Shown here piece by piece: positions 80-64,000 of a DNA stretch of 64,000 nt. The stretch is from Bryoerythrophyllum caledonicum. Taxonomy: Eukaryota > Streptophyta > Bryopsida > Pottiales > Pottiaceae. The first letter of the stretch is position 1, and each line of letters starts with the position of its first letter. A model generated the notes under the pieces. It did no database searches. It was given only the letters and a program-made list of their open reading frames with translations, and had not been told where the DNA came from. Where the stretch lies: the NCBI GenBank assembly GCA_963971425.1, contig OZ020519.1, positions 1,318,028-1,382,027 on the forward strand, given 5' to 3'. The position numbers and the translations under genes are program-made.

Positions 80-343
80 CCCCTAAAAGACATGGTGTTC
101 CTTAGAGAAAAAAATTTCAAACATCTTTCAATCTATATGGTCAAAACTTTGACAGGAAAATAAGACATCCTCCTATATGAGTTGTTCAGAAGATCCTATG
201 GTTCCATTCTCAATAAGTTCATTTTGGCACTTTTATGGAAATGGAGTAGGGATCACAAACTCCTACTACTTCTAGGAGGAGACATAAAAACCAACCCGGG
301 ACCCATGCCTAATATATTAAAAAGACGCCCTACATCACATTAA

Positions 344-2410
344 AAAAATGCCAAAATATACTTCATACCTAACACCATAAAATTACAACCGGAATATGGA
401 CACATTGCAAAATCCTTCGCACCTTTCCTAAAAAACACACATACATTACACCACACACATAACAATACACACCCCAACATTGCTCAATACATACAACAAA
501 TAAATACACATCCACCACCCCACATTCTATATGCCCTAGTAGTCACTACTCATCCACACATAGATGAGTGTAACCATCTCCTAAATCCGCAAAATTTGAA
601 CACAACTACATGGACCAATACACTTTTACAAGCTTTAGTGAACTTACAAAATTCACCAGAACGACACATTCACACTCCGCATCCTTATATAAAGTTTCTT
701 GAAGACAACCAAAATATTATAAACCATGAAAGCTCAATACATGAAGAACTATATGACTTTCTACACAGTCAAACCACACCTCCCTCAAGTGAAACAATAA
801 AACTAAAATTCCCTTACCTCCCTAACAATCTCATCAATGAATCACTAAAATGTTTTGACCCCATACCAGAATACACACACCCTCCTCCACCACTTCACTA
901 CATCCCTCCACAAAATCAAAACATTAGATCAAATCAAGAAAATACATACATAATCACCTGGAATGCCTCCTCGCTAAACACTGCCCTCCCTAGCTTACAA
1001 ACTTTGGTAATGCACACAGACACACCGCCAGCCCTCATAGTTATACAAGAAACAAAAGTTTCCGCTACAAAATCCACAAAATATATACAAAATACATTTC
1101 CAGATTATAAACTCATCTTTAATAATACACATGCACTTACAAGATGCATTCAACAACGGAGACCATATACACCTGGCCGAGGTGGCCTCCTTATACTAAT
1201 ACACCAAAAATATGCCTTCCCGGGCAATATCAACAAAATTCCTACCCCAATGCACATATCACCTTACATCCAAATAATCAAAATTACTAATCATCCACTA
1301 CAACCATGGTTAGTATTTCACATGTACATGCCATCCCACCCCGAAGATACTAGATTTATCATAGACATACAAAACACTATTACTTCTCAAATTAACAATA
1401 ACCCCAATCACACATACCTATTATGCAGAGATTTCAACAGAGACATAGCATTAATTGGTCGCCAAAATGGAAATCATAACACCCCTCCTCAAACCATGGA
1501 TTACCAATGGCGCCACTTCACAGAAAATTTAAACTTCACTTACATCAATACCGATACACAATTCTCTAGACAAGGCGGCTATTATTATAGTGATTGGAGT
1601 CAAATAGATGGATTCTATATAAATACAAACAACAATACACAATACACCTCTACAACAAACAAGGATGTAATTCTCAACTCAGACCACGCACCTATACAAT
1701 TGCACATCCCAAATAACACATTAATTAATAGAAATCCCACAATCCTAAGCAATGACACTATACGTATACTCAACCCCATTCCAAAAGACAATATAGAAAA
1801 ATTCAACACAAAATTCTTTGAAGAAAACTCCATACAAATAGAGTTCCTCATAAACACTGTTGAAAATAATAGTCAACTATCACAAGAACAATGGCAAGAA
1901 ACATGCCACACCCTAGACAAAATCATTAATGAAATCTCTGACACACTAGAACAAACTTATAGAGCCCCCCCAATACCTCAAATGACAAACAGAACTTCTC
2001 AACAAGGCGGGTATTTACCCCGCAAACTCTCTAAAACTTGGAAACAACACCTAACCACATACCATGTTATACGAAAAACCATTAGAACTGTAAAAAACAA
2101 CCCCCAATGGCGTAACCACCCCATATGCAATGAACTACTAACCCTACAACACACCCAAATCCCTACCCCGCCGCCTCCGGATCTACCCTACAATACATGG
2201 ATAAAAGATATAACACTAATTGCAAAAAATGCCAACATACAAGCCCGGAAAATAACCACAAAATACGCCAAAGATAACATTAAAAAAGCCATCTCAAAAT
2301 ATAGACAACTACACGAAATCAGCCCCAAAAAAAACTTAATAGAATTTTTTTTAAAAACCTTGAATCCCCGCCGATGGACTGTATCACAGATCAATATAAC
2401 AATATTCTAA
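344..2410 (+). pseudogene. LINE A segment: AP endonuclease domain
   Basis: Open frame from 344 to 2410 without an obvious in-frame ATG at its start. After an N-terminal region rich in Thr, His, Pro and Asn, the exonuclease/endonuclease/phosphatase fold is recognised by TWNASSL, then IQETK, GGLLILI and MYMPS. CRDFNRD follows near 1420-1445, where GDFN is usual. SQIDG lies at 1598-1612 and SDHAP near 1679. In APE-type LINEs this domain nicks the target DNA. The G-to-R change before DFN is the one visible departure at the core motif. The frame is lost near 2400, before the reverse transcriptase, by a shift into another frame. Confidence 0.85.
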
Positions 2411-2589
2411 CTAGCCCCGAAGACATAGCGAATGAAATATTCAACCAACAAACAAAAAGCAATAGACCAACAGTACCAACATGTAATTACCAACCACAAC
2501 ATCCAATTGAATGTACATGTGCAGTACGCCAATACCTATGGCATGACCTTGATGGATTTACCCTTGACAAACGAGGCAAGCCATAAATT

Positions 2590-4047
2590 CCACTACATAA
2601 ATACTTTAACAGAGCCACATACGACACATGCCTTCGAAATCTTGGTAACAACAAAGCCCCAGGCCCAGATCGCATACCAAACTCAATACTAAAAAACATG
2701 CCCCCAAGATTTCATAAATTATCATTCATATTCTTCTCTCACTGCTATAAACAAAAACAAATACCAACCTCATGGAAATCCAGTGCAACAATCTTACTAT
2801 ACAAGAAAGGAGACCCGTCTATACTACCCAACCATAGGCCAATCGCACTAGCTAAAACAATATATAAACTCTTCACTAGTACACTCACCTTTATATTATC
2901 CTCATACGGTGAAAAATTCAAAATCCTACATGACAGTCAAGAAGGATTTAGAGCAGAGAGAAGTACTGCCCGACAAATACAAACTATAATAGCCGCACTA
3001 GAAGATGCTAGATTTACAAACCAAGATATGTACATATTATACGTTGACTTTAAAAATGTCTTTGGCTCAATAGACCATGCTTGACTACTAGCGATAATGA
3101 TTGACCTTGGCTACCCAAAAGATGCAACTACACTTGTTGGAAACAACTACTCCCAATCATCCACTTACTATATCTGTGAACACTTTGGAAAAACGAAACC
3201 TATACCCATTCAAAGGGGAACTATACAAGGGGACACCCTTAGCCCATACCTATTCATTATATTCTTAGAACCACTACTCAAATGGCTAGAACGAGGCCAC
3301 AATGGATACACTTTTGGCACATCACAATTCACAATAAACTCTGCCACATATGCGGATGACCTCACCGCCATAACTAACAAAATTAAATCTATCCAAATAC
3401 AACTCAATAAAATTGATAGATATTGCAAATGGACCGGTATGGACGTAGGTGTCCCAAAATGTGCCGCTAACGGATGCCCAAACAAATCCAAATTGAACCC
3501 CACTACTTTCAAAGCCCTAATGCAAGCCTCTAACATCAATTACCGCAATCAACCAACCCCTATACTACACCAAAATAAACCATACATATACCTAGGTACA
3601 AATCTTGTTCCCTCACTAAAATGGAAAATCCAAATTCACACTACGACCACAAAACTCACCAAACAATGCAAAGAACTAACAACATGCCCGGCCACCATGA
3701 AACAAAAAATAAAAATGGTTGATACCGTACTACGCCCAGGGGTGGCATACAATTTCTACGGTGTACCATACTCTATGCCAGCTATCAAAAAACTTGATCA
3801 AAAAATAATAGCCATACAAAAAACCATATGTGAATTACCAAAATGTACGTCAAATGCAATAACCCAACTCCCACATAACTTATTTGGACTTGAAGCTTTC
3901 TCCCTCAAAAACGCATATCTCCAATGTATAGGCGAACAATTACAAAATGCTTTAAACGATAAAGGTAGGCTTGGAAAAATATATAATGGATTAACTCACT
4001 ATGTCCTTGCCCAATACAGCGGCGCCGAAAACATACCCAGAATTTAA
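2590..4047 (+). pseudogene. LINE A segment: reverse transcriptase
   Basis: The non-LTR reverse transcriptase shows NNKAPGPDRIPN (about 2650-2690), LLYKKGDPS, the NHRPIAL block, GFRAERST, YVDFKNVFGSIDH and RGTIQGDTLSPYLF. The catalytic YADD lies at 3349-3360. A thumb-like region follows, ending in GLEAFSLKNAYL, which is also where copy B meets the window edge. A TGA at 3082-3084 interrupts an otherwise continuous frame straight after the first catalytic block. The domain copies element RNA at a nicked target in the family. Assignment is certain; activity of this copy is unlikely. Confidence 0.9.
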
Positions 4048-4982
4048 AAAAGTTTCTGCATAAGATCACCAATAACACGAACATTTTTCTTATTAAAACA
4101 TATAGCTAAAGCCCACCTTAAAAGTACGCTTCCAAACTTCCTCATTAATCCTACATCACTAGAAATACTATGGCGCCAAGAAACACTAAATCACAACACA
4201 ATCAATGCCCAACTCTCCCAAAAACTCCTCTCAAAAAATATCTTTGAACTAAACCAAATTACTTTACCTAACGGCACACACATCATGAACAATGCGGACT
4301 TTAAAACCTACCACTACACCCCATCAAAATTAGTAAAAAGTGCTCTAAACGTTGCTAAACAACTATTTTGCCATCCAACATGCCCCACCACGTGTCATAC
4401 CCCTTGTAACACACACCCATACTCCTATATACTCCAAGATCCGTTCATCACCATCAACACTAACATCACCCCAAGAAATATCCCCCCCCATCAATCAATC
4501 CCCTTAACCCCCCACATCCATACCACCCCCGTCCCCCAACATACATCCCCAAAAACCCCACCACATATCCTATTAATAATATCATACACCATAAACATAT
4601 CCAACACATAGACATAAATAATATACAAAATATCTACATAAAATATTTATGCCAATGGCAACAAAATGATAACACATACAATAAATGGCTTCCCCAAAGA
4701 GACCTCTTTCCACGACACGACACTAATACTTCCACACACAACACAGAAAAATTAAAACAATACTACCAAAAAATTCAAAACAAAATTTACTCGGACATCA
4801 TCCTAGCCCACCACCCTCAAAAACAATTCACAGACTCAAGATCCGTAACACCACCCATAATTATCCCACTCTTAAACATCTATACAACTGAATGCAACCC
4901 CAAAAACGATATCCTTACATTCTCAAACACAATTAGAATAGATAACAATCAAGCACATCTATATGAAGAAAATGGCCGTCAC
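4048..4982 (+). pseudogene. LINE A segment: linker with Cys/His patch
   Basis: This stretch links the reverse transcriptase to the methyltransferase-like domain. The open piece 4285-4611 contains FCHPTCPTTCHTPCNTH, a run of cysteines spaced three residues apart with flanking histidines. The same run occurs in copy B. It may bind zinc, but the spacing matches no finger I can name. A Pro/His/Thr-rich low-complexity segment follows. Dualen was reported to encode a cysteine protease; I could not recognise one here. Confidence 0.5.
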
Positions 4983-5732
4983 TTGCACACTATCCCCGTT
5001 ACTCGACTCCAATGGCTATGGAATCAATACAATACGAAACTACAAACTCCTACAAACATTGAACCAACAACCCAACCTTTTGAAACCGAACTAACCTGGC
5101 TCTACCAAAGGTATAAATACCGAGTACCTAAAAATGACCCCCTAAAAAATGCGCAATACACAATACCCACACCCATATTAGACTCACTAATTTCATCCTT
5201 TAACATCGAACAATCATATTTTTCCTCCCCGGTCAATTGCTCTACCAAACTAAAAAAAATCTACTCACCTTATGAAAGAGACAAAATATTCGGATCCCTA
5301 GGAAAGGCCTTTGACTACAAATGGACCGGTAAAGGGATAGCTCACCCCCACGATGATAGGGAAATGGAACAAGCAATACACTGGGCTCGACTTGCCGCCA
5401 AACACGACCCAAATAACACAAGCACAATCATCATCACACCAAACAACAATTGGTACCAAAACAACAGTCAACACTCAAACCCATTCCTAGACTCCCATAT
5501 CATTGCAATATTTGAGGCAAATTCAATACCATACGAAGAACCTACGATTCCACCCGAGCTAAAAAAACCCCGAATCGAGCCATCTACATTACAAATACTA
5601 TGTGTCCATCATCAAAATCAAACCCTTGGCACCCTAGAGCAACTTGTCAAACTTACCGCCATATCAGACAATTTAAACATACACAGATTATACACAAAAC
5701 CAGCCCCCCAACACCTATACAGACCCCCGTAA
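4983..5732 (+). pseudogene. LINE A segment: PCIF1-like methyltransferase-fold domain
   Basis: An ordered series of motifs follows the pattern of PCIF1-type adenine methyltransferases. FSSPVN (about 5220-5237) corresponds to the F-x-SPLN motif. YSPYERDKIFGSLGKAFDY corresponds to the YCSAF...FGS-G segment. GKGIAHPHDD then lies where the family has a catalytic NPPF. STIIITPNNNW, SHIIAIFEANSIPY and TLQILCVHHQN follow at the places of later beta strands. The N-P-P-F signature is replaced by A-H-P-H at 5340-5351, and copy B has the same change, so the domain may have lost catalysis or serve binding. The assignment rests on motif order recalled by eye, not on a profile search. Confidence 0.55.
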
Positions 5733-5759
5733 ACCGTAGTAAAAACTGGTCAAAACTAA

Positions 5760-6340
5760 ACTATATCAATAATACATTAAACTACTTCGTCACACCGCCC
5801 CCTCTTCCAAATTATCAACTCATACCACACCAAAATTTAACCCCGCACACAGTTATTTCACCGACGGCTCCTTTAAACCACCAGAACAAATTAGCCCGGG
5901 CTCTTGGCGCAGAGAAAAAGCTGGCTATGGCATATATAATTCTACCAAAGAAATTAAACTAGCCAAAAGACTTCATGGACTACAAAATATCCTTAGAACA
6001 GAACTCATGGCCATTCAAAAAACACTACAAATCATCACAACAAAATACAACAATGAACCCGCACATATATTCACCGATTGTATAAATGCACTCTACCTAC
6101 TAAACACCCAAATAACACACTCTACCCTTCACAATAGCCACCCTGACCAAACCATATTAACGTCAATGGTCCAAATGTTACAAAACCGAACACAAATCAC
6201 AACCCTCCACAAAGTGAGAGCCCATGTCAACATTGATGGTAATGTACAAGCAGACAAATTAGCAAAAGAAGGCAGAGAAAAACACACAAAAATGCCAAAG
6301 ATCCACACGAACATGCCCATGCCACCCCATACTACTTCCA
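5760..6340 (+). pseudogene. LINE A segment: RNase H
   Basis: This is an RNase H domain of the type found in I-group and Dualen LINEs. The acidic residues appear in order: FTDGS (Asp at 5863-5865), RTELMAI (Glu at 6001-6003), FTDCINALYLL (Asp at 6076-6078) and VQADKLAKEGR (Asp at 6253-6255). KVRAH precedes the last motif, as in active RNase H enzymes. It would remove RNA from the RNA/DNA hybrid. All four acidic positions are kept here, while copy B has Asn at the first. The domain is in a different frame from its neighbours on both sides. Confidence 0.85.
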
Positions 6341-6395
6341 AAAAGAAGATTGGCCTTCCAAAGAAGAGACCCCCGACAAAGGCCCAATTAGATTC

Positions 6396-7335
6396 TTGGG
6401 CAAATATCTCAAAAAACAAGACCTCTACAACAACCTTGACACAATCTTAGAAAATATTCCTAACATAGGAAAATGGACTAACAATAACAACATAGACAAT
6501 GAACTCTCTACAAATTTTTGGAAAAACCCCATCATCTCAGACTCACAAATAACATGCCTCATCAAATTCCGTACTGGTCAATATATGGGAAACGCCGGCA
6601 AACAACTCTTCTTAGGAATAGAAATATTCCCATCCATAACATGCCCCATATGCCCCTCAACGGACCCCGATACATGGCTTCATGTTTTACTCAAATGCCA
6701 AAACCACCACATACACTCTCTAATTGTTAAAAGACATAATAAAGCGGTTTGGGAAGTCCGAAAACTAATCACCTCCTACAACAAATCGAGATGTTTCATA
6801 TTAATGAACGCCGGCACCTTTAATAACAATCCACAAGAAAATACGGTCCCTCCTTAGCTACTCCCATGCTCATGTGTAACCCAAAGATGTCATTGCAATG
6901 CTCGGCTAAAACCGGACATCCTTTGTGTTAAAGGTTTACCATACAATGGTCCACCACCCGACCACATTAACCAAGACTACACCATTCAATTTATTGAATT
7001 CACATATTGCAACGACAGATTTTCCCCGGAAACAATCTAAAATAAAATAGATAAACACCAACCTCTTATTGACGACATCATTGCCCTCGGATGGAATGTG
7101 GACCCCCTTATTGTAATCACATCTGGCGCTCGTGCCACCACCTTTATCCCATCTATGAAAACTTTTGAAGATGCCTTTAAAATACCCAATTGAAACAATT
7201 AAAATCACCTTTAAAAACATTAACACCATCGCTACTCAATATGCCATGTCCATTTTACTACATAAACGCAAAATTGAAAACAACCAAGCCCTTCCCGAAA
7301 CACAAGTCCCCCCCAAATTTCTTCCCTCGCCTTGA
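6396..7335 (+). pseudogene. LINE A segment: zinc knuckle and restriction-like endonuclease
   Basis: A CCHC knuckle (CPIC, then H and C, about 6642-6700) has spacing C-x2-C-x9-H-x4-C. A second Cys-rich piece (CSCVTQRCHC) comes next. The PD-(D/E)xK-like endonuclease follows: KPDI at 6909-6920, then IEFTYCNDRF and NKIDKHQPL. This knuckle plus KPD arrangement is that of R2-type and Dualen LINEs. Stops at 6855-6857 and near 7038 break this copy. The equivalent region in copy B is one uninterrupted frame. Confidence 0.75.
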
Positions 7336-7622
7336 CTTATCTTGATTGGTTAGTTTTTGTGGTTTTGGCTACTTGTTTGGTTGGTTTTGTGATTTTTGGT
7401 TACTTGCTTGGTTGGTTTGTGGTTTTGGCTACTCGCTTGGTTAATTAGTTGGTTAATTGATTGATTGTTTGCTTAGGGAGTTTCTGGCTACCCGTTACAT
7501 AGTGTCTACCCTCAAAAGGGGGAAGTAGTTCCAGCTTTCTAATTCCCTGTTCGGTGGGCATGGTCTTAGTAGGGGAACGAACAGACACTTTATTCACGCC
7601 GGTTCAGTTCTTCTTCTTCTTC
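7336..7622 (+). repeat. LINE A 3' UTR with short tandem repeat and TTC tail
   Basis: From 7336 to about 7470 there are imperfect repeats of a unit like tggttttggctacttgcttg. From 7495 to 7622 lies the conserved tail: a stem-like CCTCAAAAGGGGGAAGTAG, then GAACGAACAGACACTTTATT, then five TTC triplets. The last part recurs in the SINE at 45290-45649 and in the LINE copies at 59885 and 60308. Confidence 0.75.
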
Positions 7623-60556: not shown

Positions 60557-61969
60557 CTATGGAGGGTCGTGTGTGTTGGGGAGAGGTTGGTTGTTTTTAA
60601 TTTTGCGTTTATGTAGCAAAATGGACATGGCATATTGAGTAGCGATGGTGTTGATTTTTTTAAAGGTGGTTTTAATTGTTTCGATGGGTATTTTGAAGGT
60701 TTCTTCAAAAGTTTTCATAGATGGAATAAACGTGGTGGCAGGAGCGCCAAATGTGATTACTACAAGGGGATCCACGTTCCATCCAAGGGCCATAATTTCT
60801 TCTATGAGGGGTTGGTATTTATCTATTTTGTTTTGGATTGTTTCTGGGAAAAATCTATCATTGCAATATGTGAATTCAATGAATTGAATGGTGTAGTCTT
60901 GGTTTATGTGGTCGGGTGGTGGGTCATTATATGGTAAACCTCGGACACATAGTATGTCCGGTTTGAGCCTAGCATTACAATCGCATCGTTGAGTCTCGCA
61001 TGAACATGGGAGTAGCCAAGAGGGAACCGTATTTTCTTGTGGATTGTTGTTGAAGGTGCCGGCATTCATTAGGATAAAGCATCTCGATTTGATGTGGGAG
61101 GTGATTAGGTTTCGAATTTCCCATACGGCTTTATTATGTCTTTTAACAATTAAGGAGTGTATGTGGTGGTTTTGGCATTTGAGTAGGACATGGAGCCATG
61201 TGTCGGGGTCCGTTGAGGGGCATATGGGGCATGTTATGGATGGGAATCTTTCTAATCCAAAGAAAAGTTGTTTACGAGCGTTTCCCATATATTGGCTGGT
61301 ATGGAATTTAATGAGGCATGTTATTTGTGAGTCGGAAATGGTGGGGTTTTTCCAAAAATTTGTAGAGAGTTCATTGTCTATGTTATTGTTGTTAGTCCAT
61401 TTTTCAATGTTAGGGATGTTTTCTGTTATTGTGTCAAGATTATTGGAGTAGTCTTGTTTTTGGAGATATTTGTCCAAAAATCTAATTGGTCCTTTATCGG
61501 GAGTATCTTCTTTGGAAGGCCATTCTTCTCTTTGGAAGTAGTACGGAGTAGCATGGGCATGTTCGTGTGGGTCTTTGGCCTTTTTGTGTGTTTTTTCTCG
61601 ACCTTCTTTTGCTAATTTATCCGCTTGTTCATTGCCATCAATATTGGAATGGGCTCTTACTTTGTGGAGGGTTATGGTGTGTGCTCGGTTCTGTAACATT
61701 TGGATCATTGGCATTAGTATGGTTTGGTCGGGGTGGCTATTGTGAAGGGTAGGGTGTGTTATTTGAGTGTTTAGTAGGTAAAGTGCATTCATGCAATCGG
61801 TGAATATATGAGCGGGTTCATTGTTGTATTTTGTTGTAATGAGTTGTAAAGTTTTGTGGATGGCCATAAGTTCTGCTCTAAGGATATTTTGTAATCCATG
61901 GAGTCTTTTGGCTAATTTAATTTCTTTGGTCGAATTGTATATGCCATATCTTGCTTTTCTCTTCGCCAA
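60557..61969 (-). CDS. LINE B frame: RNase H (part), zinc knuckle, restriction-like endonuclease
   Basis: The 470-codon frame carries the later RNase H motifs (AELMAIHKTL, FTDCMNALYLL, EQADKLAKEGR), then CPICPSTDPDTWLHVLLKC. This is a CCHC knuckle with C-x2-C-x9-H-x4-C. CSCETQRCDC follows, then the PD-(D/E)xK-like core: KPDI (60953-60964), IEFTYCNDRFF and NKIDKYQPL. A helical tail ends at the stop at 60557. The first RNase H Asp lies upstream in another frame and reads Asn (YTNGS, near 62010), so RNase H activity here is doubtful. The endonuclease core looks intact. Confidence 0.85.
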   Translation of the reverse strand: MAKRKARYGIYNSTKEIKLAKRLHGLQNILRAELMAIHKTLQLITTKYNNEPAHIFTDCMNALYLLNTQITHPTLHNSHPDQTILMPMIQMLQNRAHTITLHKVRAHSNIDGNEQADKLAKEGREKTHKKAKDPHEHAHATPYYFQREEWPSKEDTPDKGPIRFLDKYLQKQDYSNNLDTITENIPNIEKWTNNNNIDNELSTNFWKNPTISDSQITCLIKFHTSQYMGNARKQLFFGLERFPSITCPICPSTDPDTWLHVLLKCQNHHIHSLIVKRHNKAVWEIRNLITSHIKSRCFILMNAGTFNNNPQENTVPSWLLPCSCETQRCDCNARLKPDILCVRGLPYNDPPPDHINQDYTIQFIEFTYCNDRFFPETIQNKIDKYQPLIEEIMALGWNVDPLVVITFGAPATTFIPSMKTFEETFKIPIETIKTTFKKINTIATQYAMSILLHKRKIKNNQPLPNTHDPP

Positions 61970-62490
61970 TTTCGTGGGCTAATTTGTTCTCGTGGTTTAA
62001 AGGATCCATTGGTATAATAACTATGTGCGCGATTAAATTTTGGGGTAGTATGAGTTGGATAGTTTGGGAGGGGGGGCGGTGTAAAAAGGTAGTTCAATGT
62101 ATTGTTGATGTAGTTTAGTTTTGACCATTTTTTACTTCGGTTAACGGGGGTTTGTATAGGTGTAGGTGGGATCAGCCGTGTATATAATCGGTGTATATTT
62201 AAGTTGTGTGTTATGTTGGTGAGTTCTGCTAGATGTTCTATAGTGCCGATGGTTTGATTTTGATGATGTACACATATTATTTGTAATGTGGATGGTTCAA
62301 TTCGGGGTTTTTTTAACTCGGGTGGGATAGTAGGTTCTTCGTATGGTATTGAGTCTGCTTCAAATAATGCAAGGATATGGGAATCTGGGAATGGGTTTAA
62401 GTGTTGGTTGTTGTTTTGGTACCAGTTGTGGTTTGGTGCAATGATGATTGTATTTGTGTTGTTTGGGTCATGTTTGGCGGCAAGTCGAGC

Positions 62491-63666
62491 CTAGTGTATT
62501 GCTTGTTCCATTTCCTTCTCATTGTGGGGGTGGGCTATACAATTACCTATCCATTTGTAGTCAAAGGCTTTTCCCAATGATCCGAATATTTTGTCTCTTT
62601 CAAAAGGTGAGTGGAATTTTTTTAGTTTGGTAGAGCATGTGACCGGTGAAGAAAAGTATGATTGTTCAATGTTAAAGGATGATATTAGTGAGTCTAAAAT
62701 GGGTGTGGGTATTGTGTATTGCATATTTTTGAGAGGGTCATTTTTTAGGATTCGGTATTTATATCTTTGGTATAGCCAAATTAGTTCGGTTTCAAAGGGT
62801 TGGGTTGATGGTTCTATGTTTGTTGGCGTTTGTAGTTTTGTATTGTATTGATTCCATAACCATTGGAGTCGAGTGGTGGGAATAGTGTGCAGATGTCGGC
62901 CATTTTCTTCACATAGATGTGCTTGATCGTTATCTAATTTCATTGTGTTTGAGACTGTAAGGATATCATTTTTTGGATTACATTCTGTTGTATAAATGTT
63001 TAAGAGTGGAATAACTATGGGTAGTATTACGGATCTTGGGTCTAAGAATTGTTCTTGAGGGTGGTGGGCTAGGATGATTTCCGAGTAAATTTTGTTTTGA
63101 ATTTTTTGGTAGTATTGTTTTAATTTTTCTGTGTTGTGTGTGGAGGTATTGGTGTCGTGACGTGGAAAGAGGTCTCTTTGGGGAAGCCATTTATTGTATG
63201 TATTATTATTGTGTTGCCATTGGCATAAATATTTTGTGTGGGTATTTAATATGTTATTTGTGTCTGTGTGTTGGATATGTTTATGGTGTGTGATGTTGTT
63301 AATGGGATATGTGGTAGGGTTTTTGGGGATGTGTGTTGGGAGGCGGGGATGGTGTGGATGTGGAGGGTTAGGGGGTTTGATTGGTGGAGGGATATTTCTT
63401 GGGATAATGTTATTGTTGATGGTAATGAATGACTCTTGAAGTATATAGGAGTATGAGTGTATGTTACAAGGGGTATGACATGTAATGGGGCATGTGGGGT
63501 GGCAAAATAGTTGTTCAGCAACATTTAGAGGACTTTTTAATAATTTGGATGGGGTGAAGTGGTAGTTTTTGAAGTCCACATTGTTCATAATGTGTGTGCC
63601 ATTAGGTAAAGTAATTTGTTTTAGTTGATAGGAGTTTTTGTAGAAGCTTTTGGGAGAGTTGGGCAT
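62491..63666 (-). CDS. LINE B frame: Cys patch and start of PCIF1-like domain
   Basis: The frame carries FCHPTCPITCHTPCNIH, a His/Pro-rich linker, a long helical region and YFSSPVTCSTKLKKFHSPFE. FGSLGKAFDYKW and IAHPHNEKEM come next, with A-H-P-H again in place of NPPF (near 62526-62537). It ends at a TAG (62491-62493) where copy A has TGG. Beyond the stop the frame stays open and reads ARLAAKHDPNN and onward, so this is a single substitution. Confidence 0.75.
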   Translation of the reverse strand: MPNSPKSFYKNSYQLKQITLPNGTHIMNNVDFKNYHFTPSKLLKSPLNVAEQLFCHPTCPITCHTPCNIHSYSYILQESFITINNNIIPRNIPPPIKPPNPPHPHHPRLPTHIPKNPTTYPINNITHHKHIQHTDTNNILNTHTKYLCQWQHNNNTYNKWLPQRDLFPRHDTNTSTHNTEKLKQYYQKIQNKIYSEIILAHHPQEQFLDPRSVILPIVIPLLNIYTTECNPKNDILTVSNTMKLDNDQAHLCEENGRHLHTIPTTRLQWLWNQYNTKLQTPTNIEPSTQPFETELIWLYQRYKYRILKNDPLKNMQYTIPTPILDSLISSFNIEQSYFSSPVTCSTKLKKFHSPFERDKIFGSLGKAFDYKWIGNCIAHPHNEKEMEQAIH

Positions 63667-64000
63667 TGAGTGTGTTGTGGTTTAGTGTTTCTTGGCGCCA
63701 TATTATTTCTAGTGGTGTAGGGTCAATGAGGAAATTTGGGAATGTGCTTTTAAGGTGGGCTTTAGCTATGTGTTTTAATAGGAAGAATGTTCGTGTGATT
63801 GGTGATCTTATACAATCACTTTTTTTAAATTCTAGGCATGTTTTCGGCACCACCGTATTGGGCAAGGACATAATGAGTTAATCCATTATATATTTTCCCA
63901 AGTCTACCTTTATCATTTAGAGCATTTTGTAGTTGTTCACCTATATATCGGAGATATGCGTTTTTAAGAGAGAAGGCTTCAAGCCCAAATAGATTATGTG

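Follow-up and report, generated by a model that had tools for sequence, protein, structure and literature searches.

Proteins of LINE retrotransposons are usually read as a reverse transcriptase (RT) with an endonuclease and an RNase H, and how a LINE chooses its own full-length RNA and handles the 5' end is poorly understood. Among other retroelements, DIRS retrotransposons, which use a tyrosine recombinase, carry a Dam-type (adenine) methyltransferase that belongs to another family than PCIF1. The Dualen/RandI group of LINEs has been described as combining an APE-type endonuclease with a restriction-like endonuclease (PMC3636483, PMC4640811). For the cap-specific m6Am methyltransferase PCIF1/CAPAM, the changes N553A and F556G are reported to lower activity (PMC11550742), double changes at N553 and F556 serve as inactive mutants (PMC10544176), and related phage enzymes have been reported for the PCIF1 clade (PMC7824862). 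In METTL16, the Asn of the NPPF motif contacts both SAM/SAH and the acceptor adenosine; changes to the motif abolish methylation, and a change of its Phe abolishes RNA binding as well (PMC7927073). The methyltransferase domain of METTL14 is catalytically inactive, and METTL3/METTL14 catalysis draws on RNA-binding elements from each of the two subunits (PMC7927073).

Here we describe a PCIF1-like domain within the polyprotein of a plant LINE, found in a 64-kb window (the whole stretch of DNA that was analysed). Among the titles and abstract openings listed by searches of open-licence papers there was no description of such a domain in a LINE, and a prior mention elsewhere is possible.

LINE copies in the window and the domain order of the element

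A single LINE family has a copy at each end of the window. Copy 1 (254-7314, forward strand) corresponds in tblastn to codons ~731-3087 of a 3087-codon open frame in the same genome (the native frame, G000:C1, with codons counted from the upstream stop); its 5' part is missing and its frame is broken in places. Copy 2 (60560-63998, reverse strand) corresponds to codons ~1937-3087, is cut by the window end, and has frame breaks and an in-frame TAG within the PCIF1-like domain. Piecewise identity to the native frame is 80-96% across both copies; for copy 1 it is 87-90% in pieces of more than 100 residues and 80-88% in two short pieces. A small additional LINE fragment (60318-60202) is 51% identical to the same frame. 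In a search of the genome (437,360,962 bases in 894 contigs), 42 of 150 scored places, out of 5,360 candidates, have one identical score, and in 33 of these 42 the frame is open over exactly 3087 codons. Young copies of the family thus seem to be numerous in the genome, and the three of these places that were read (L039, L044, and L045) have an identical domain sequence. The genome carries rbcL in three contigs; the piece read resembles the land-plant gene and marks the host as a plant.

The first ATG of the 3087-codon frame is at codon 477, with none in codons 1-476, and the leader is of low complexity with the short repeats PCDLPN and TNTNTYTN (both read in L051/L039). A conserved LINE 3' end (GTGTCTACCC...GGGGGAAGTAGTTCC...ACAGACACTTTATTCACGCC) recurs in the window at 7403-7605, 60436-60333, 60029-59918, and 45426-45285, and at positions 628-766 of L051; its places include one upstream of the open frame of the long-frame element, and TTC repeats follow it in several of them. 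The arrangement looks as if LINEs had inserted into older 3' ends or beside them. The 64-kb window had no match in scans for Rfam families and tRNAs.

The order of parts in the element is a 2A-like site, an APE-type endonuclease, the RT, a chromodomain-like segment, the PCIF1-like domain, RNase H, and a C-terminus with Cys/His and KPD..EFT motifs. The full 2A string G-G-D-I-E-T-N-P-G-P occupies codons 738-747 of the long-frame copy and fits the reported StopGo core motif, (D/G/C/N)(V/I)ExNPGP (PMC12846837); copy 1, as read in sequence, has G-G-D-I-K-T-N-P-G-P (275-304, forward strand), with K in place of E. A decayed 2A-like string is present at codons 640-648, ~100 codons upstream of the full motif (L051/L039). 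Almost no StopGo motifs were found in the plant viruses covered by PMC12846837, in contrast to the presence of the motif in this plant LINE.

The APE-type region of copy 1 (911-1723, forward strand) was mapped by tblastn from the long-frame copy, where PF03372 matches with an E-value of 7.7e-7 and 29.5 bits (cut-off 24.5); window positions 596-2410 themselves match PF14529 alone, below the cut-off of that family. The RT (2626-4035, forward strand, ends approximate) is of the non-LTR type expected of a LINE, with an RVT_1 match of 8.6e-13 at window positions 3097-4047 and of E 1e-26 in the long-frame copy, whose closest PDB entries are R2 (1.1e-30) and L1 (~1e-20). A His/Pro-rich low-complexity spacer follows the RT in copy 1 (~4400-4600, forward strand). 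RNase H lies at 5800-6282 in copy 1 (forward strand, tblastn mapping) and at 61598-61960 in copy 2 (reverse strand; PF00075, 49.6 bits, 6e-13). At the C-terminus the native frame reads C-x2-C...H-x4-C, R-H-N, and K-P-D...E-F-T. By eye, the corresponding motifs in the window, CPIC..H..C, RHN, and KPD..EFT, lie at 6633-7314 in copy 1 (forward strand) and at 60560-61300 in copy 2 (reverse strand). These motifs resemble the restriction-like endonuclease of R2-type LINEs; Pfam and PDB searches with the C-terminal region gave no nuclease match.

Relationship of the domain to PCIF1/CAPAM

The original prediction, made from the letters of the sequence, placed a PCIF1-type methyltransferase domain between RT and RNase H in both copies. 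Its position is the same in the two window copies and in the native frame (~codons 2320-2550), and the proposed link to PCIF1 was borne out by profile search. The PF12237 model matches copy 1 at 5043-5459 (forward strand; residues 21-159 of P0001, the product of 4983-5732) with 49.6 bits and an E-value of 4.6e-13, and copy 2 at 62509-62832 (reverse strand, before the TAG; residues 279-386 of P0002, the product of 62491-63666) with 44.9 bits and an E-value of 1.3e-11, both above the curated cut-off of 31.1 bits. All 150 scored places of a genome search (2,614 candidates) pass this cut-off, including the domain of copy 2 (L031, 52.5 bits, with one TAG inside). In alignment A1, 12 of 12 members match the model (best E 2.7e-14). 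The matches span mostly positions 7-146 of the 176 in the profile. In copy 1 the frame of the domain stretch 4983-5732 is already open well upstream (from 4464 in our scan), and the TTG at 4983 is no meaningful start. The name of the Pfam model, PCIF1_WW, has been reported to be a misannotation of a CAPAM-like methyltransferase model (PMC7641849), and a real WW domain was rejected on this ground. Scans of pieces of the frame outside codons ~752-844, at thresholds of E ≤ 1 or 10, matched no N-terminal WW domain.

Retroelement proteins in the Pfam seed, if there are any, would keep the PF12237 score alone from proving a link to PCIF1; direct comparisons with zebrafish and human PCIF1 are independent of the seed. 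PCIF1 ranks first among 177,635 PDB sequences (zebrafish, E 0.043; human, E 0.12), with an alignment that covers the motifs and the site. Such pairwise E-values are not convincing alone in a blind search, and PCIF1 had been named in the original prediction before the homology tests. A profile of A1 gave no better E-values for PCIF1 (0.10 and 0.79), and its zebrafish alignment stops before the site. With hhalign, A1 and the zebrafish PCIF1 fragment were paired with a probability of 83 and an E-value of 8.5e-6, aligned as far as F-G-S-x-G and leaving the place of A-H-P-H uncovered. Scored against the LINE-domain profile, the same fragment reached 18.0 bits, compared with 8.3 for the best shuffled sequence (20,000 made, 12,834 with a reported score). 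These comparisons show that the stretch, part of a plant LINE polyprotein, is at the level of sequence truly homologous, though diverged, to the methyltransferase domain of PCIF1/CAPAM.

The motif order of PCIF1-type methyltransferases that had been predicted is present in copy 1, which reads Y-F-S-S-P-V-N-C, S-P-Y-E-R-D-K-I-F-G-S-L-G, F-D-Y-K-W, A-H-P-H, and I-I-I-T-P. Copy 2 has the same motifs up to A-H-P-H, save for V-T-C in place of V-N-C; its product ends at the in-frame TAG (62493-62491), and I-I-I-A-P follows beyond this stop in the unchanged frame. A later L-Q-I-L-C-V-H-H-Q stretch with a C-x-H-H pattern (5589-5621, forward strand) may be a late strand. The residues H250, H299, C334, H336, and H337, the last three of which form the C-x-H-H pattern, are invariant in all 12 rows of A1, one of which is only 49% identical to the window copy. 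AlphaFold, run on window sequences only (376 and 244 residues, 3 rows each), gave no usable model (pLDDT 33.9 and 36.6), so that the Rossmann fold of the domain is predicted from homology.

Searches for relatives outside the family were made in several collections. The A1 and A3 patterns matched 12 and 136 stretches of viral contigs, and the A3 pattern 77 stretches of genome contigs, none of which was confirmed; the patterns are short and LINE-like, and distant PCIF1 relatives could escape them. The domain had no match in PHROGs (best E 0.55). Searched against the LINE's own genome, the zebrafish PCIF1 fragment scored at best 26.7 bits (150 scored places, 642 candidates). Of these places 44 were read: 42 have the LINE motif region, L087 runs into other LINE sequence, and L081 missed the site. 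No host PCIF1 gene was seen among the 44, and a gene split by introns could escape such a search.

Motif replacement and selection

The alignment places A-H-P-H-(N/D/T) under the A-N-P-P-F of PCIF1. In copy 1 the A-H-P-H motif lies at 5340-5351 (forward strand) and in copy 2 at 62524-62535 (reverse strand). An untrimmed alignment with zebrafish PCIF1 sets A-N-P over A-H-P and shifts P-F-C-E-E-L-M into the LINE tail, and the trimmed rows agree with the PDB alignment. To survey the motif across the family, we compared both window copies with 98 loci, 100 sequences in all, of which 95 scored at least 14 and five loci (L051, L081, L097, L098, and L099) had no score. Removal of five same-place duplicates and the truncated L087 left 89 unique loci (84 distinct DNA haplotypes). 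The loci are the best-scoring places of three genome searches (150 scored each), and old or distant families may be missing from them.

A-H-P-H is present in 69 of the 89 unique readable loci and in all 11 of the long-frame copies examined. Variants are A-H-P-Y (four loci), A-H-L-H (three), S-H-P-H and V-H-P-H (two each), and A-R-P-H, A-D-P-H, A-P-P-H, A-H-P-P (L052), A-N-P-H, G-H-P-H (L059), A-H-P-L, P-H-R-H, and A-H-S-H (one each). In 85 of the 89 loci, His stands at the Asn position. The original prediction had proposed a family-wide check for N-P-P-F; N-P-P occurs in 0 of 89. Both His are kept through synonymous changes (CAC in 71 and CAT in 14 loci at the former position, CAC in 78 and CAT in 5 at the latter). 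The motif is also found in diverged subfamilies (L012, which is 49% identical in A1, L009, L013, L017, and L018). In the copies sampled, H-P-H has taken the place of the N6-adenine catalytic motif. The description of the domain as lacking its catalytic motif is correct as far as the absence of N-P-P-F is concerned; the domain may have a changed activity.

Pooled dN/dS of the PCIF1-like domain is 0.145 (6 long-frame copies, 15 pairs). Among the same six copies, values are 0.062 for the RT, 0.120 for APE, 0.106 for RNase H, and 0.102 for the C-terminus. The APE-RT linker has 0.139, the post-RT region 0.171, and the linker after RNase H 0.082. The conserved stretch before the domain, at 0.083, has no detected similarity to the helical cap-binding domain of PCIF1. 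The low-complexity spacer has the highest value of the ten regions compared (0.545). In a larger set of 34 rows, in which two places occur twice and a few copies are damaged, dN/dS ranges from 0.07 to 0.27 by dS bin (556 of 561 pairs), with 0.174 at dS 0.2-0.4 and 0.152 at dS 0.4-1. The domain is under clear purifying selection, less strict than that on the RT, RNase H, and both nuclease regions, and this level of constraint argues against decay. Together with the family-wide survey it led us to reject local decay as the source of the motif change, which is inherited, as the original prediction had held.

Possible roles of the domain and comparison with known systems

Given the family-wide change at the NPPF positions, the LINE domain most likely makes no N6-methyladenine any longer. 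Since the domain is selected, we propose a pseudo-methyltransferase role in nucleic-acid binding beside the RT. Lying between the RT and the RNase H, the domain would bind nucleic acid as a Rossmann-type module, and its likeliest ligand would be the element's own (template) RNA, perhaps at a capped 5' end or a flipped-out base, held during RNP formation or target-primed reverse transcription. The proposal draws on two parallels, the catalytically inactive METTL14 and the cap binding of PCIF1. We see an even chance that this selected PCIF1 homologue with a replaced N6-adenine motif serves as a pseudo-methyltransferase holding the element's own RNA. Several observations count against it: the domain is less constrained than the RT, RNase H, APE, and C-terminus (0.062-0.120), the PDB E-values were not improved by a profile, Pfam coverage is partial, and the PCIF1 helical domain was not detected upstream. 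Further, the loss of RNA binding on changing the METTL16 Phe (PMC7927073) means that the H-P-H loop need not hold adenine. On the whole the data suggest that the LINE has taken up an altered RNA-methylase fold and put it to a new use.

Other readings are enzymatic. The domain could still be a SAM-dependent methyltransferase that uses H-P-H for N-P-P-F and modifies a different atom or a different substrate, be it an RNA cap, cDNA, or protein. In favour of this are the purifying selection and the near invariance of the remaining residues that it has in common with PCIF1 (F-x-S-P, D, F-G-S-x-G, G, A, and P); we know of no active methyltransferase family with H-P-H. We consider this rather unlikely, as the Asn reported to contact SAM and adenosine in METTL16 (PMC7927073) is His at nearly all loci and PCIF1 activity drops when its Asn is changed (PMC11550742, PMC10544176). 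The old pocket might instead have become a His-lined metal or other active site, built from H-P-H, D-(S/T)-H, and C-x-H-H, with a new activity. The five invariant Cys and His residues of A1 are consistent with such a site; that they meet in space is an assumption, and His is common along the whole polyprotein. We hold this reading very improbable. A bolder proposal is that a PCIF1-type cap methyltransferase captured by a LINE lineage now has a rebuilt His-based site, which would recognize the capped 5' end of the element's RNA or catalyse some new reaction there. We hold this unlikely; if true, such a site would provide built-in recognition of the full-length capped template. We know of no earlier case of a cap-reading domain within the polyprotein of a reverse transcriptase.

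The segment directly before the PCIF1-like domain (4578-4712, forward strand; ~codons 2175-2219 of the native frame) is a candidate chromodomain with the pattern I..H....YLCQWQ...T.NKWLPQ..L, and raises the possibility that it and the inert fold form a protein-protein or chromatin-targeting module, which guides integration or recruits host factors. In every one of the 11 copies scanned (alignment A6), Pfam Chromo matches the segment with an E-value of 1 or less (best E 3.3e-4), adjoining the domain in each, and dN/dS is low in the stretch before the domain. However, the Chromo scores given (13.2, 16.4, and 16.7 bits, the last for member 1) all fall under the 25.1-bit cut-off, and 12 Pfam families match at E ≤ 1 across the 11 copies, the 11 besides Chromo weakly and in some copies. 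In the PDB, the CBX4 chromodomain (E 0.45) comes second to an unrelated match (E 0.19). The binding partner is hypothetical, and we regard the module as distinctly unlikely, while a LINE with a chromodomain would be of interest in its own right. Chance resemblance or a decaying passenger, to which the modest pairwise PDB E-values (0.04-0.8) and the altered motif in 20 of 89 loci might point, is scarcely credible in view of the Pfam score well above cut-off, the shuffle control, the dN/dS of the domain, and the long open frames. The Pfam score and shuffle control also led us to reject a chance origin of the motif order.

Returning to the proposed pseudo-methyltransferase, a selected, disarmed relative of a cap methyltransferase, lodged at this place in the polyprotein between RT and RNase H, suggests a function in RNA-end recognition and hints that a retroelement captured an enzyme of mRNA modification. 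The element resembles the Dualen/RandI group in having APE, a non-LTR RT, RNase H, and a Cys/His and KPD..E C-terminus within a single element. By domain order its plan is like a dual-endonuclease (Dualen-like) one, with the C-terminal nuclease a candidate recognized by eye. The descriptions of the group that we consulted (PMC3636483, PMC4640811) mention no PCIF1-like domain. PCIF1/CAPAM and the LINE domain share F-(A/S)-S-P, D, F-G-S-x-G, and A-x-P at matching places. They differ in that the LINE domain has A-H-P-H, not N-P-P-F, and sits in a retrotransposon polyprotein, with no WW domain in the pieces scanned and no helical domain detected. As in METTL14 (PMC7927073), a methyltransferase domain would be retained without activity. 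METTL14, unlike the LINE domain, belongs to another methyltransferase branch and is a separate host subunit with an active partner, METTL3, where none is known for the LINE. The family would then offer a natural example, shared by its copies at large, of a pseudo-methyltransferase from a branch other than METTL3/METTL14.
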